Shown here one piece after another: positions 561-6,007 of a stretch of 6,454 nucleotides of DNA. Under the pieces are notes generated by a model. That model did no database searches. It saw only the letters and a list, made by a program, of their open reading frames with translations, and was not told the DNA's origin. Location of the stretch: contig JAHIPN010000408.1 in the NCBI GenBank assembly GCA_018894595.1, positions 1 through 6,454 of the forward strand. The letters are read 5' to 3'. Position 1 is the stretch's first letter; every line of letters begins with the position of its first letter. This stretch comes from a bacterium (GTDB taxonomy: Bacteria > Atribacterota > JS1 > SB-45 > 34-128). The position numbers and the translations under genes were made by a program.

Positions 561-1022
561 ATGAAAAAAGAAATGTTGGAAATAATCAGTGCTGAAGCGA
601 GAAGAAAACTCGAAGATCAATTAAACGCAGTAGATTCTACAGATCAAAAAATAGGAAGTATCTTAGGTTTTGTTGGTGTAGTTTTAGTCTTAGCTTTTAA
701 TAGTAAACCAAATCAATCATGCTCATTATTATTTTATCTATTAAGCCAAATTTCATTCGTTGTGAGTATTTTAATTTTGTTTTTTGGTTATCACTCAATA
801 AGATTAAAAACTGGTTTAAGCATAAAAGGATATTTAGAGGAAACTATAGAATTAGAGTGTGAAGAAGACTTAACAGTTTTTATCGAAGATCAGGTAAAAT
901 ATTTTAAAGATGCCATAAATACAAATAATTATCTAATAAAACAAAAAAATATATATTTAGCTTACGGTGTGTTGCTGTTATTAATAGGTTTAGTTTCATA
1001 TACTGTAAGTACACTAATCTAA
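561..1022 (+). CDS. Small three-helix membrane protein of unknown function
   Basis: This 153-residue protein starts with a charged amphipathic helix (about 1-30, EARRKLEDQL then DSTDQK). A first membrane segment follows (about 31-46, IGSILGFVGVVLVLAF), then a second (about 56-79) and an acidic soluble stretch (about 88-130, rich in E and D with FIEDQVKYF). The last membrane segment (131-152) ends at the C-terminus. There is no signal peptide. The layout, with D-x-K just before the first segment, recalls membrane effectors of cyclic-nucleotide defence systems (Pycsar/CBASS TM, SLATT-like). That is only a resemblance, and no nucleotide cyclase gene is visible here. TAA at 555-557 rules out a longer start. 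The SD is poor: GGAAG 541-545 is 15 bases away, so ATG 573 is an alternative. It is probably co-transcribed with the 43-codon ORF that begins 17 bases downstream. Confidence 0.75.
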   Translation: MKKEMLEIISAEARRKLEDQLNAVDSTDQKIGSILGFVGVVLVLAFNSKPNQSCSLLFYLLSQISFVVSILILFFGYHSIRLKTGLSIKGYLEETIELECEEDLTVFIEDQVKYFKDAINTNNYLIKQKNIYLAYGVLLLLIGLVSYTVSTLI

Positions 1023-1365: not shown

Positions 1366-1395
1366 AAGGTACTTACTTATATAAAGGAAACGAAA

Positions 1396-2094
1396 ATGAT
1401 ATACAAAAAACCAAAAAATATGGAAAATAAAGAATTGTCTTTCCTTAAAGAATTTTTAGCATCTAGTTTTTTCACTGATATTAATGAGAATCATCAATAT
1501 GGAGTATCAACAATACAAGAACCATATACGGGATTTGGTTATGCTGATTTAGTATGCATAATCTGGGATCAATCAATTAGAAAGAAATGGTTGGAGAAAA
1601 GGAATCAAATTGATATTATTGATATAAAAATATTGCATCACCTTTACAATGTTAAAATATTCAAAGAGAAGAACGAAATTACGAAAGAACTAGGATTTAG
1701 TTTAAGAAAAACTAATAAATCAGTTGGAAAGTTGTTAGAAGCTGAACTAGTAACAATAAACAAGCAAAACAAAATAAAAATTAAAAATTTAAAAGAGATA
1801 TTTTTTATAAAAGAAATTATTTCAATTGAAGCTAAGTTGCATGATTGGAAAAAGGCATTGGAGCAATCCCTTAACAATGTTTATTTTTCTTCCAAATCAT
1901 ATGTTCTTTTTCCTGAAAAAATAATAACAAAAAGATTGATGGCAGAGTATATGAATACTGATGTAGGAATTATTTCATTTGAAAAATCTTATAGGATTAT
2001 AAAAAAACCAAAAAAACAAAAAATTCCCTCATCTTTGAATTCATGGTTTTTTAATGAGTATATAGGGAGGGAATTGTGTGCAAACTTTAAGTGA
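1396..2094 (+). CDS. PD-(D/E)xK nuclease-like protein with inserted winged-helix-like domain
   Basis: This 232-residue protein carries the signature of the PD-(D/E)xK nuclease fold in two halves. Residues 13-57 give an N-terminal helix and the strand GFGYADLVCII with D51, preceded by E42. Residues 141-172 give IISIEAKLHDWKKALEQ, with E145-x-K147 and Q157, then the strand SYVLFPEK. The final core part (about 181-196, LMAEYMNTDVGIISFEK) matches the late helix-strand of this fold. Between the halves, residues about 72-130 (IDIIDIKILHHL, EITKELGFSLRKTNKSVGKLLEAELV, then a basic wing) read as a winged helix-turn-helix. Family knowledge implies metal-dependent DNA cleavage; target and activity are inferred. 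ATG 1396 is favoured by AAAGGA 7 bases upstream; ATG 1420 is an alternative. It is the first gene of three, and its end overlaps the kinase start by 17 bases. Confidence 0.7.
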   Translation: MIYKKPKNMENKELSFLKEFLASSFFTDINENHQYGVSTIQEPYTGFGYADLVCIIWDQSIRKKWLEKRNQIDIIDIKILHHLYNVKIFKEKNEITKELGFSLRKTNKSVGKLLEAELVTINKQNKIKIKNLKEIFFIKEIISIEAKLHDWKKALEQSLNNVYFSSKSYVLFPEKIITKRLMAEYMNTDVGIISFEKSYRIIKKPKKQKIPSSLNSWFFNEYIGRELCANFK

Positions 2095-2959
2095 AATTAC
2101 AGAAGAAGAAATAAAAGAATTAATTCTAAAAATTCCTGTGAATTTAAAATTACTCGATAAAATTGGAAAAGGTGGACAAAAACAGGTATATAAAGCCATC
2201 GATCAAGATAAAGACAATATAATTGTATTTAAAGTAATAAGACCAAATTTAGACATTGAAAGAGTAAAAAGAGAAATAATAGCAGTAAAAATAATAAGCC
2301 ATCAGCACATTCCTAAGATATATAATTCAAATGTTGAAAGTGTAAATAATGCCGACGAAATAATTTGGATAATTGAAGAATTTATTGAAGGAGAATCATT
2401 AAGGGATGCGTTAAAGAGAAAAAGAAGTTTTAATTTAGGTGATATTGTCCTTTTTATCGATACAATGCTTTCAATATTAGAAAAATCAGATGCTTCAAAT
2501 ATTATTCACAGGGATATTAAACCAGAAAATATAATTATAGATACTAAGAATAAATATTGGTTAATAGATTTTGGCATTGCAAGACATTTAGAGCTGGAGT
2601 CGCTTACAGAATCAAATTCTCCTTTTGGGCCATTTACGATTGGGTATTCAGCAGCAGAACAATTTCGAAATAGAAAAAAAGAAATTGATATTAGAGCAGA
2701 TTTATTTTCTTTGGGGGTTGTTGTTGCTGAAATAATTACTGGATACAATCCATATTTACGTGACGCAAAAGACGTTTTACAAATAATAAAAAATATTGAA
2801 AATCAACCCTTACCATTATTAAGAATAGAAGGAGACAGCCAATTTTTACTTGCAAGATTTATAAAAGTTTTAGGTGATAATAGAATTTCAAGGAGGCCAA
2901 GAACTGCAAAAGAAGCGAAGCAATTATTTAATATTGTGAAAAATACATTAAAAATATAA
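2078..2959 (+). CDS. Soluble Hanks-type Ser/Thr protein kinase
   Basis: The 293-residue protein is little more than a kinase domain. Visible are the glycine-rich loop GKGGQKQV (30-37), ATP-anchoring K52 in VFKV, helix-C E66, catalytic loop HRDIKPEN (144-151), metal-binding DFG (164-166), the activation segment with TIGYSAAEQF (187-196, the APE equivalent) and D208 in the ADLFSLGVV stretch. All catalytic residues are present, so it should be active. The third glycine of the loop is replaced by lysine (K35). No transmembrane helix or PASTA repeat follows, so it is cytoplasmic and not a cell-wall sensor kinase. The start is GTG 2078, fixed by GGGAGG (2065-2070) 7 bases upstream inside the preceding gene. 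The substrates are unknown; the two operon partners are the obvious candidates. Confidence 0.93.
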   Translation: MQTLSEITEEEIKELILKIPVNLKLLDKIGKGGQKQVYKAIDQDKDNIIVFKVIRPNLDIERVKREIIAVKIISHQHIPKIYNSNVESVNNADEIIWIIEEFIEGESLRDALKRKRSFNLGDIVLFIDTMLSILEKSDASNIIHRDIKPENIIIDTKNKYWLIDFGIARHLELESLTESNSPFGPFTIGYSAAEQFRNRKKEIDIRADLFSLGVVVAEIITGYNPYLRDAKDVLQIIKNIENQPLPLLRIEGDSQFLLARFIKVLGDNRISRRPRTAKEAKQLFNIVKNTLKI

Positions 2960-2971
2960 GGAGATTTTATT

Positions 2972-4180
2972 GTGGAATTGTTTTTGCAAATGGGTCATCA
3001 AATGAAACCTCACTCACTTGAACTTCTTTCAAAGTGGGGAGAAGGCACTGTTATTTTAAGCCCTAAATATATGACTTTAAAACAAATGAAAATAATAGCT
3101 AATGATATTCAACAAAGAAATGGTTCTGTTTTAGTTGATCCTCAATTTTATATGCCAAGAACTTCTCAAGAAAAATTACATTTACATTCTTTTTGGCCCC
3201 AAGAATACAATACAAACACATTTTTTAATGGAAGAGGAGTTAAAGAAATGATAAATATTCTCTTGAATGAGTATATTTATCCACTTGAAGCATCAGCATT
3301 TATAATACCAACCTTATATTTAGAAAACACAAATGAGGATTGGAACAATATTACAGAGAGAACCATTAGTTCATTATCAAATTTTCAACTGTCAATTCCA
3401 AAATATTTAACAGTATGCGTTGGAGAAGAATTATTAAAAAATGAAGAAAATACACATTTATTAATTGAACAATTAGAAAATTATCCAGTTAATGGATTTT
3501 ATATTATACCAACACACCCAAACAATAGCTATTTAGTTGAGAATGTTTCTTGGCTATTAAATTTATTAGATTTAGTCTCTAGTTTGAAATTGTCAGGAAA
3601 AAAGGTGATAGTTGGGTATTCTAACCATCAATTACTTTTTCTTTCTCTCGCAAAAGTGGACGCAATATGTGCTGGGTCTTGGTTGAAAACAAGAATGTTT
3701 CCTCTAGGAGATTTTAATGAGAATAGCGATGAGCAAGGTGGTGGCAGGAGAAGCATATGGTATTATTGCCCTCAAGCCCTTTCAGAATATCAAGTCCATT
3801 ATTTAGACATTGCCCATAGAGTGGGTATACTTCAAGATATGAAACCTCCAGAAGTATATGAATCAGAATATTCAGCAATATTATTTAATGGTGCACAACC
3901 AACAACAGTTGATTTTAAGGAAAAACAGGCATTTAGACATTATCTCAACAGCTTAAAAACGCAGTGCTTGGAAATTCCCAAAGAAACATATGGGGATACT
4001 AAATCATATTTAAAAATGATTTTTGAAACGGCAATAGATCTCACTAATTATTTCCGTGAAAATGGAGTTAGAGGTAAACATCGTGATTTTAACAATATTG
4101 GTGAGAGTAATTTATCAATATTAGATGCTTTTGATAATATACGTGGTCTAATTTATAATGCAAAATGGCAAGAGATTTAA
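2972..4180 (+). CDS. Putative alpha/beta-barrel enzyme of unknown family, third gene of the kinase operon
   Basis: The 402-residue protein begins at GTG 2972 with AAGGAGA (2958-2964) 7 bases upstream, overlapping the kinase stop. Eight hydrophobic strands alternate with helices across residues 3-237: LFLQMG (3-8), TVILSP (26-31), SVLVDPQF (52-59), AFIIPTLY (109-116), YLTVCVG (145-151), GFYIIPTH (175-182), KVIVGYSNH (211-219) and AICAGSW (231-237). This is the pattern of a TIM barrel, and the polar residues at strand ends (H9, D56, E152, H182, N218, S236) would line its active site. A Gly/Arg-rich loop (256-260) and WYYCPQALSEY (263-273) follow, then a helical C-terminus ending near AFDNIRGLIYNAKW. 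A tRNA-guanine-transglycosylase-like barrel was considered, but the usual CxCxxC zinc site is absent. The function remains unassigned. Confidence 0.85.
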   Translation: MELFLQMGHQMKPHSLELLSKWGEGTVILSPKYMTLKQMKIIANDIQQRNGSVLVDPQFYMPRTSQEKLHLHSFWPQEYNTNTFFNGRGVKEMINILLNEYIYPLEASAFIIPTLYLENTNEDWNNITERTISSLSNFQLSIPKYLTVCVGEELLKNEENTHLLIEQLENYPVNGFYIIPTHPNNSYLVENVSWLLNLLDLVSSLKLSGKKVIVGYSNHQLLFLSLAKVDAICAGSWLKTRMFPLGDFNENSDEQGGGRRSIWYYCPQALSEYQVHYLDIAHRVGILQDMKPPEVYESEYSAILFNGAQPTTVDFKEKQAFRHYLNSLKTQCLEIPKETYGDTKSYLKMIFETAIDLTNYFRENGVRGKHRDFNNIGESNLSILDAFDNIRGLIYNAKWQEI

Positions 4181-4964: not shown

Positions 4965-5561
4965 ATGCGACAAGATGTATCAAATTATTTAATTCATTTT
5001 GTGAGTGATAAATCATTTGATTTAGCATATTTGAGATTAAGAAAAATTATCAAAGAGAGATGTTTGCTCGGAAATAATAAATTTATCAAAGGTGGCCATA
5101 CTTGCATTTGTTTTTCTGAAGCTCCACTTAATTGTTTACCAGGCGGCCTTGTAAATCCAGATTATTATTCCAGATATTCTTCTTTCGGTATAATGGTTAC
5201 AAAAAAATGGCTATTCAATTTAGGCGGACGTCCAGTAATATATCAATCTGAAGCTGAATACTACTTGCTCCCAGATCAAATTCAATGGAGACATGTACTA
5301 TACGATCCTTTAAAAGACCCACCCATTGATTTTACGTGGGAACGTGAATGGCGAATAAATTATGCTCATCTGGATTTTAATCCGTCAAATGCACGTATAA
5401 TAGTTTTAGATAATTCATGGGCGGATAGATTAAAAAAAGATCACGAACGTGAGGAAGATTATAATGTAAGAGCATACAGTATGATATTTGATGAGGATGA
5501 CGAAGAATTAGCAGAACAATTACGAAATAAATTTGATTGGACTATAATGACATTAAACTGA
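4965..5561 (+). CDS. AbiGi/DUF2971-like protein, possible abortive-infection factor
   Basis: The 198-residue protein has the landmarks of the AbiGi/DUF2971-like group. YLIHF (8-12) is followed by a leucine-rich helix, then CICFSEAPL (47-55), YSSFGIMVTKKWLFNLGGRPVIY (given here by residue range 71-93, key residues F74, G75, K80, W82, G88, P90) and WEREWRI (125-131). Members of the group occur in phage-defence and toxin-antitoxin loci. The H11 ... Y/S ... E126/E128 order resembles ADP-ribosyltransferase-fold enzymes such as DarT, which is an inference, not a shown activity. TAA at 4959-4961 directly upstream makes ATG 4965 the first possible start. GTGGAGGT (4945-4952) is 12 bases away, a long spacing that may lower expression. 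The C-terminus is acidic (DEDDEE). The 128-residue gene follows after 59 bases. Confidence 0.65.
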   Translation: MRQDVSNYLIHFVSDKSFDLAYLRLRKIIKERCLLGNNKFIKGGHTCICFSEAPLNCLPGGLVNPDYYSRYSSFGIMVTKKWLFNLGGRPVIYQSEAEYYLLPDQIQWRHVLYDPLKDPPIDFTWEREWRINYAHLDFNPSNARIIVLDNSWADRLKKDHEREEDYNVRAYSMIFDEDDEELAEQLRNKFDWTIMTLN

Positions 5562-5620: not shown

Positions 5621-6007
5621 ATGCAAAAATATGAAGGTTCACATTTAGATGAATGGATGAAGTGGATTAAAGGTCAAACTTTGCCACCTCTTTGTGTTGA
5701 GCTTCTTTTAAAAAATAACCGTAGTTATTTCCTTAATAATGTATTTTACTGGGAAGACGATGATCCTATAGCAATTCTTCGAATATGGGATTTTAGAGCA
5801 ATGTCAGATGATGATATTAATGAACTAAAGAAAACTATGAATAAGATTCAAGATCGTGAGGAATACGGAAAGCCAATTAATATTCACAAGAAATTAGATT
5901 GGGCAAACTTGCGGGTTTCTAAAGATTATATTGCCTATGTTATTGAGTGGCACGATCGATTATGGCCAGGAGGTGAGATTGGATTTAAGGCAGAAATAAA
6001 AAAGTAA
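5621..6007 (+). CDS. 128-residue Trp-rich acidic protein of unknown function, partner candidate
   Basis: A strong SD, AAAGGAGAT (5608-5616), lies 6 bases (from GGAG) before ATG 5621. The protein has seven tryptophans in 128 residues and conserved-looking blocks: LDEWMKWIKGQTLPPL (9-24), ILRIWDFRAM (52-61), an acidic helix DDDINELKKTMNKIQ (63-77), KLDWANL (91-97) and YVIEWHDRLWP (106-116). No signal peptide, membrane segment or catalytic signature is visible, and I do not recognise a named family. The 59-base gap to the AbiGi-like gene holds no clear promoter or terminator, so the two are probably co-transcribed. An antitoxin or immunity role would fit its size and acidity, but this rests on position alone. 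Confidence 0.75.
   Translation: MQKYEGSHLDEWMKWIKGQTLPPLCVELLLKNNRSYFLNNVFYWEDDDPIAILRIWDFRAMSDDDINELKKTMNKIQDREEYGKPINIHKKLDWANLRVSKDYIAYVIEWHDRLWPGGEIGFKAEIKK

Follow-up and report, generated by a model that had tools for sequence, protein, structure and literature searches.

Stk2 is a Ser/Thr protein kinase of phage defence. A kinase of this type also serves in the KKP phage defence system, which is made up of two kinases and a phosphatase and contains neither a nuclease nor a barrel protein (PMC11341870). In a study of type 2 BREX, PglW is portrayed as a single protein of 1400-1600 residues that unites a NERD nuclease, a Ser/Thr kinase, an inactive second kinase and winged helices within one defence unit (PMC12839542). 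Here we describe a three-gene cassette, N-K-B, present in a 6,454-nucleotide stretch of DNA from a bacterium of the phylum Atribacterota (contig JAHIPN010000408.1; hereafter the window). It encodes a PD-(D/E)xK nuclease-fold protein (N), a Ser/Thr protein kinase (K) and an eight-stranded barrel protein whose predicted fold is that of the tRNA-guanine transglycosylases (TGTs; B), and its features look like those of a system that defends against invading DNA and has not been described before. The cassette is found in many bacteria and in at least one archaeon.

N-K-B resembles PglW in joining a nuclease, a Ser/Thr kinase and a winged helix, but its parts are three separate small proteins, one of which is a barrel of TGT-like fold; the conserved unit contains no further BREX gene. 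With the Dpd system (DpdA-K) it shares the presence of a TGT-fold protein alongside a nuclease; it differs from Dpd in possessing a kinase and in having no recurrent DpdB, DpdC or deazaguanine-type gene cluster in its partly annotated flanks. B itself is set apart from the known TGTs (bacterial Tgt, archaeosine TGT, QTRT1) by the lack of a PF01702 match and of the C-x-C-x-x-C zinc motif, and apparently by an Ala or Cys at the strand-8 nucleophile position, which was mapped by eye. A preliminary description of the stretch, made from its letters alone, had not recognised the triple under any name. Consistent with this, N and B lie outside PADLOC-DB 2.0, and our literature search found no description of the triple, although preprints and many journals were beyond its reach and a recent name is possible.

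Arrangement and linkage of N, K and B

N and K overlap by 17 nt, and K is separated from B by a gap of 12 nt (Table 1). The gene coordinates, overlap and gap given in the preliminary description agree exactly with the list of open reading frames (ORFs) of the window, as do the GTG starts of its second and third genes. The strong Shine-Dalgarno sequence that it ascribed to each gene is present before K and B, while the site in front of N is weaker.

All ORFs of the loci from a genome scan (76) and a viral-contig scan (three) were searched with profiles for N and B and with the window's kinase. Together with the window this makes 80 loci, including L059, which has a split B ORF and was restored to a tally of 79. 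The three genes stand side by side, in the order N-K-B and on one strand, in 71 of these 80 loci, a count that contains near copies (L009-L012, L068/L069, L073/L074, L058/L063) and hence not only independent events. Chance adjacency is ruled out by this number, and the operon proposed earlier was borne out. The preliminary description had also named single homologues with lost linkage as the finding that would speak against it; we found the linkage to hold over about twenty phyla. The arrangement is interrupted by a contig edge in four loci (L022, L025, L035, L060) and by split ORFs of N (L030), K (L037) and B (L059). In one locus (L031), B is kept, K is reduced to roughly its C-terminal third and N is missing. 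Wherever B is intact in the interior of a contig, K is thus present at least as a remnant. Four further stretches, three of them new cases (the haloarchaeal plasmid of Natribaculum breve, L123, together with L136 and L137) and one a contig of an already counted locus (L138, of L074), carry all three genes.

In L062, K and B share one strand while N lies convergently downstream, and N is again convergent to K-B in the divergent L136. A separate promoter must serve N in these two loci, so that co-transcription is not needed; N is linked to K-B even without it. Among 1004 clustered flank genes, no fourth conserved gene was found. Clusters recurring in at least four loci are a serine recombinase (seven loci), an ABC-type family (five) and eleven families of one integrative-element block (four each). 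Collectively, the gene arrangement noted in the preliminary description is confirmed as real, while its interpretation is partly supported.

Predicted folds and catalytic residues

The predicted structure of N (pLDDT 93.7) and its conserved residues reveal the D...(D/E)-x-K signature on the common core fold of PD-(D/E)xK proteins, in line with the earlier call. N has 114 homologues at E <= 0.001, of which 46 were aligned with the window protein (A2). The predicted catalytic residues are kept throughout (D51, E145, K147 and Q157 in 118/118 sequences, E42 in 117/118; these counts, like those of 119 and 176 for B below, contain near copies and count the window repeatedly). Judged from the model, N may carry out metal-dependent cleavage, for which DNA would be the substrate. 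Its core resembles the nuclease cores of 3dnx (SPO1766), which we take to represent a repair-type family, and of the type IIS enzyme PaqCI, from both of which N differs by its inserted winged helix. A sequence relation to either was not found among PDB sequences, where searches returned no match and later winged-helix-type chains only. The inserted domain is of the MarR/Lrp type, with weak matches below the cut-off (e.g., NCBIfam Lrs14, 4.9e-05), and some homologues of N are listed under the name 'predicted transcriptional regulator'. No PADLOC-DB 2.0 model matched N (E up to 1) or its archaeal counterpart (E up to 1e-5).

K is the only member of the trio that is recognised, as a protein kinase, by Pfam (Pkinase, 5.7e-36), PADLOC-DB and NCBIfam; it matches many PADLOC kinase models, with PD-T4-6 as the best (6.4e-44). 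The catalytic Lys, the HRD Asp, the Asn and the DFG Asp of Hanks-type Ser/Thr kinases are all present. His, Arg and Asp (D146) of the HRD motif, Lys148, Asn151, and Asp (D164) and Gly of the DFG motif are invariant in 71/71 sequences, while the DFG Phe is found in 68/71 and the catalytic Lys (K52) in 70/71. The kinase was thus rightly taken to be catalytically intact.

For B, the predicted structure (pLDDT 90.6, pTM 0.91) contains the eight barrel strands that the preliminary description had read from the sequence; the barrel was left unassigned there, and its predicted (beta/alpha)8 fold is now that of the TGTs. D56, Y177, G235 and R241 are invariant, and several invariant residues are located at strand ends; an alignment of B (A1) was built from the window protein and 41 of 120 listed homologues. 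D56, kept in 176/176 sequences, lies at the end of strand 3, presumably the position of a catalytic Asp in TGT enzymes. At the strand-8 position that would fit the nucleophile, mapped by eye without coordinates, 130 of the 176 sequences have Ala, 41 have Cys and five have Ser, Thr or Gly. The zinc motif C-x-C-x-x-C is absent from 119 of 119 sequences.

Database searches gave a consistent picture. None of 42 B members matched PF01702 (E up to 10), and a search of 12 host genomes with this model at the same threshold recovered none of the 12 trio loci. Against Pfam, PADLOC, NCBIfam, PHROGs and PDB sequences, B yielded nothing better than E 0.01; the best PADLOC match was CARF3 only (E 0.018, search up to E 1), archaeal B matched no PADLOC-DB 2.0 model (E up to 1e-5), and searches of PDB sequences with B profiles found nothing up to E 10. 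The NCBIfam TGT and Dpd models were unmatched in nine B proteins, for which two unrelated models were the sole matches (E 0.013 and 0.058). B nevertheless belongs to a large family, with 1060 homologues at E <= 0.001 whose listed names read 'hypothetical protein'.

A poorly predicted loop of B (Table 1) is a candidate lid or phosphorylation site. Within the eight residues preceding its conserved Trp, the pattern R/K-R/K-x(0-2)-S/T occurs in 93 of the 173 sequences (out of 176) that have the Trp motif, as compared with 1.8% of random 8-mers. Phosphorylation of this loop is only a lead, since many of the aligned sequences have no Ser or Thr there.

Table 1. Features of the window and of the proteins N, K and B (nucleotide positions in the window unless residues are given).
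Feature	Position	Strand	Description
Gene N	1396..2094	+	232 aa, ATG start; PD-(D/E)xK nuclease-fold protein
Gene K	2078..2959	+	293 aa, GTG start; Ser/Thr protein kinase
Gene B	2972..4180	+	402 aa, GTG start; (beta/alpha)8 barrel, tRNA-guanine-transglycosylase-like fold
Shine-Dalgarno-like site before N	1383..1388	+	aaagga, weaker; read by eye
Shine-Dalgarno-like site before K	2065..2070	+	gggagg; read by eye
Shine-Dalgarno-like site before B	2958..2963	+	aaggag, overlapping the K stop codon; read by eye
Winged-helix domain inserted in N	~ residues 66-135		
K motifs	from residue 144; from residue 164		HRDIKPEN; DFG
B loop, residues 251-262	3722..3757	+	251-259 with pLDDT under 50; basic pair 259-260 conserved; W263 next
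Small protein	561-1022		by eye, a pair of hydrophobic stretches; PycTM of PADLOC matched weakly (6.4e-05)
Flanking gene	4965-5561		PHROG 13416 5e-4; PADLOC AbiGi E 0.048; no Pfam match at E 0.5
Further gene	5621-6007		

Distribution, mobility and neighbouring genes

According to record titles, the hosts of the trio fall into 20 labelled phylum-level groups and the Halobacteria, with eight of 76 entries unlabelled and with bins that may err. Within such groups the trio is rare: it was present in two of 60 genomes of one genus (centred on Flagellimonas), in two of 19 Exiguobacterium genomes (the same two among 200 relatives) and in four of 198 genomes of one phylum, counts that include the starting genomes. 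This patchy presence led us to reject a housekeeping operon. The tree of B requires 32 changes of phylum label, as compared with a minimum of 19 and a mean of 46.2 after shuffling, which suggests partial clustering by phylum with much movement, to which binning errors contribute.

Two Methylotenera loci (L058, L063) have only 3.3 kb in common, at 94% identity, in 10-kb surroundings that are otherwise unlike. The common block extends from about 450 bases before N through the end of B, and by this sequence comparison it is the cassette that was exchanged as a unit in Methylotenera. Upstream of N, inside this block (~7888-8280), a reverse-strand stretch resembles, as judged by eye, a small XRE-type regulator. 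The trio of the Flagellimonas locus sits in a 16-kb block that recurs, at 93% identity each time, in loci from records under the names Cytophaga, Maribacter and Euzebyella. B matched no phage record and a single plasmid record, the Natribaculum plasmid, while three IMG/VR contigs (L077-L079) carry N-K-B.

The surroundings were sampled at 20 loci (135 of 172 flank ORFs) and at 20 control stretches from other parts of those contigs (130 of 181 ORFs), with ORFs of at most 1500 aa drawn at random and a PADLOC-DB threshold of 1e-15. Flanks matched 119 PADLOC models and controls 37, and the leading 25 of each set were viewed. Among those of the flanks were BrxA, BrxC, PglZ, PglX, type I methylase and specificity subunits, type II and type IIG models, AbiEi/AbiEii and mad2/mad3; those of the controls included mad3/mad6/mad8, PD-T4-6 and other kinases, MkoA/MkoC, a PDC candidate and GlgB, and no restriction, BREX or Abi model. 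Resolvases (4/135), recombinases (3/135) and phage integrases (3/135) led the Pfam matches of the flanks. A type I restriction system adjoins one trio (L050), and a type IIG-like gene precedes the archaeal one (L123) by about 1.4 kb. Directly after the archaeal B, a metallophosphoesterase is encoded (7204-7893 of L123; Metallophos_2, 3.7e-27), and two of the 135 flank proteins match the PP2C family; both might counteract the kinase.

Within the window, the transposase proposed at 3-119 was not borne out, as this ORF has no Pfam match at E 0.5, Pfam being the sole test applied, and the likeness to AbiGi proposed for the gene at 4965-5561 did not hold up (Table 1). The product of 561-1022 may act as a membrane effector in a different system.

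In the Desulfosarcina widdelii genome that carries one of the trio loci (L028), two extra DpdA-like relatives of the transglycosylases occur besides Tgt (L091, 1405-2688; L095, 1354-2538). The L095 copy begins where a same-strand gene of 373 aa ends, and this gene may encode a putative DpdB/ParB-like partner.

Possible functions of the N-K-B module

A mobile unit, often found near restriction genes, that combines an intact nuclease core bearing a winged helix with an intact kinase and with the fold of a base enzyme in which residues are invariant fits an anti-invader system. The explanation that we prefer, and to which we assign about an even chance of being correct, is that N-K-B is a self-contained, horizontally moving module against phages or plasmids in which a signal is relayed from B through K to N. 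It builds on the gene order and its conservation, the intact catalytic residues predicted for N and K, the predicted fold of B, the patchy spread and the sampled neighbours. B, we infer, would most likely recognise invasion by binding a nucleic-acid base or a nucleic acid with modified bases, and its fold points to a guanine-type base within nucleic acid as the ligand. K would relay this signal by phosphorylating B and/or N, and N would then cleave DNA. Since the zinc motif is absent and the nucleophile apparently lost, a role of B in reading bases is favoured over one in writing them.

Several observations weigh against this explanation. Plain Foldseek ranks other barrels alongside the TGTs for B. 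Profile comparisons of B with 10 Tgt and two, later five, DpdA-like proteins were not significant, the score of the trimmed region was reached by 32 of 200 column shuffles, and none of the viral-contig relatives sought for a DpdA-like protein and a Tgt in order to deepen the profile was confirmed. A sequence link between B and TGT/DpdA was therefore dropped, and the TGT assignment rests on the fold. The catalytic nucleophile is probably lost from B, as read from a by-eye motif match that is the sole basis for this statement. The flank comparison is qualitative and no statistic, with redundant models, the leading 25 viewed per set and MADS-type models in both. A correlation of distances, taken over the loci other than L010-L012, may in part reflect shared descent. 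Moreover, by their PADLOC, PHROG and Pfam matches the window's own flanks are not convincingly defensive. The anti-phage role advanced in the preliminary description hence finds indirect backing in the patchy spread, the horizontal transfer and the restriction, BREX, Abi and recombinase neighbours at other loci, and no clear backing in the window's own flanks, on which it had partly drawn.

Three other explanations have to be considered. N or K might be a toxin held by B until a phage interferes, in a phosphorylation-driven toxin-antitoxin or abortive system similar to KKP, a principle for which that system provides a precedent (PMC11341870). The compact coupled genes, the kinase, the mobile context and the PP2C matches (2/135 flanks) would suit such a system; three conserved folds with invariant residues, however, exceed what a simple antitoxin needs, and no phosphatase family recurs in at least four loci. 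We regard it as improbable. More doubtful still is a modification-based restriction system in which B, as an active base exchanger of the DpdA kind, marks self DNA or RNA, N cuts what is unmarked and K acts as a switch. The TGT fold and the invariant D56 at the end of strand 3 speak for it, as do the TGT homologues reported from Dpd and BREX-related capture systems (PMC12839542). The missing zinc motif and the Ala or Cys at the strand-8 site in 171/176 sequences (by eye) argue against an active exchanger, and no deazaguanine or DpdB/DpdC family recurs beside the trio among flank clusters of at least four loci, single flanks being annotated in part.

Just as doubtful in our estimate is a role outside defence, in which the unit would serve mobile elements or cells in regulation or DNA repair: N would be a DNA-binding regulator or a repair nuclease, tuned by K, and B would sense a nucleotide metabolite. 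The MarR/Lrp-type winged helix of N, the names of some of its homologues and the match of its core to the repair-type 3dnx would agree with such a unit; the invariant E-x-K, the patchy spread, the restriction and BREX neighbours in the sample and the near-solo exchange of the cassette do not.

Returning to the relay from B through K to N, it might represent a class of immunity, common to bacteria and archaea, that has not been described before. A catalytically repurposed protein of the transglycosylase fold would read bases and, by way of a dedicated kinase, turn on a DNA nuclease, so that a phosphorylation cascade would lead from the recognised base to the cutting of DNA. This wider claim we consider unlikely, and the same low likelihood attaches to modified guanines in phage DNA and altered tRNA as examples of the bases read. 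A large family of 'hypothetical protein' entries now has a predicted fold through B. If the module does serve in defence, its 1060 B homologues would make it a widespread system, for which we found no name, that packs a trio of enzyme folds into a minimal unit. The way in which a kinase controls a DNA nuclease in prokaryotic immunity might be learnt from it, and it would give the transglycosylase-fold family a role outside tRNA and DNA modification.
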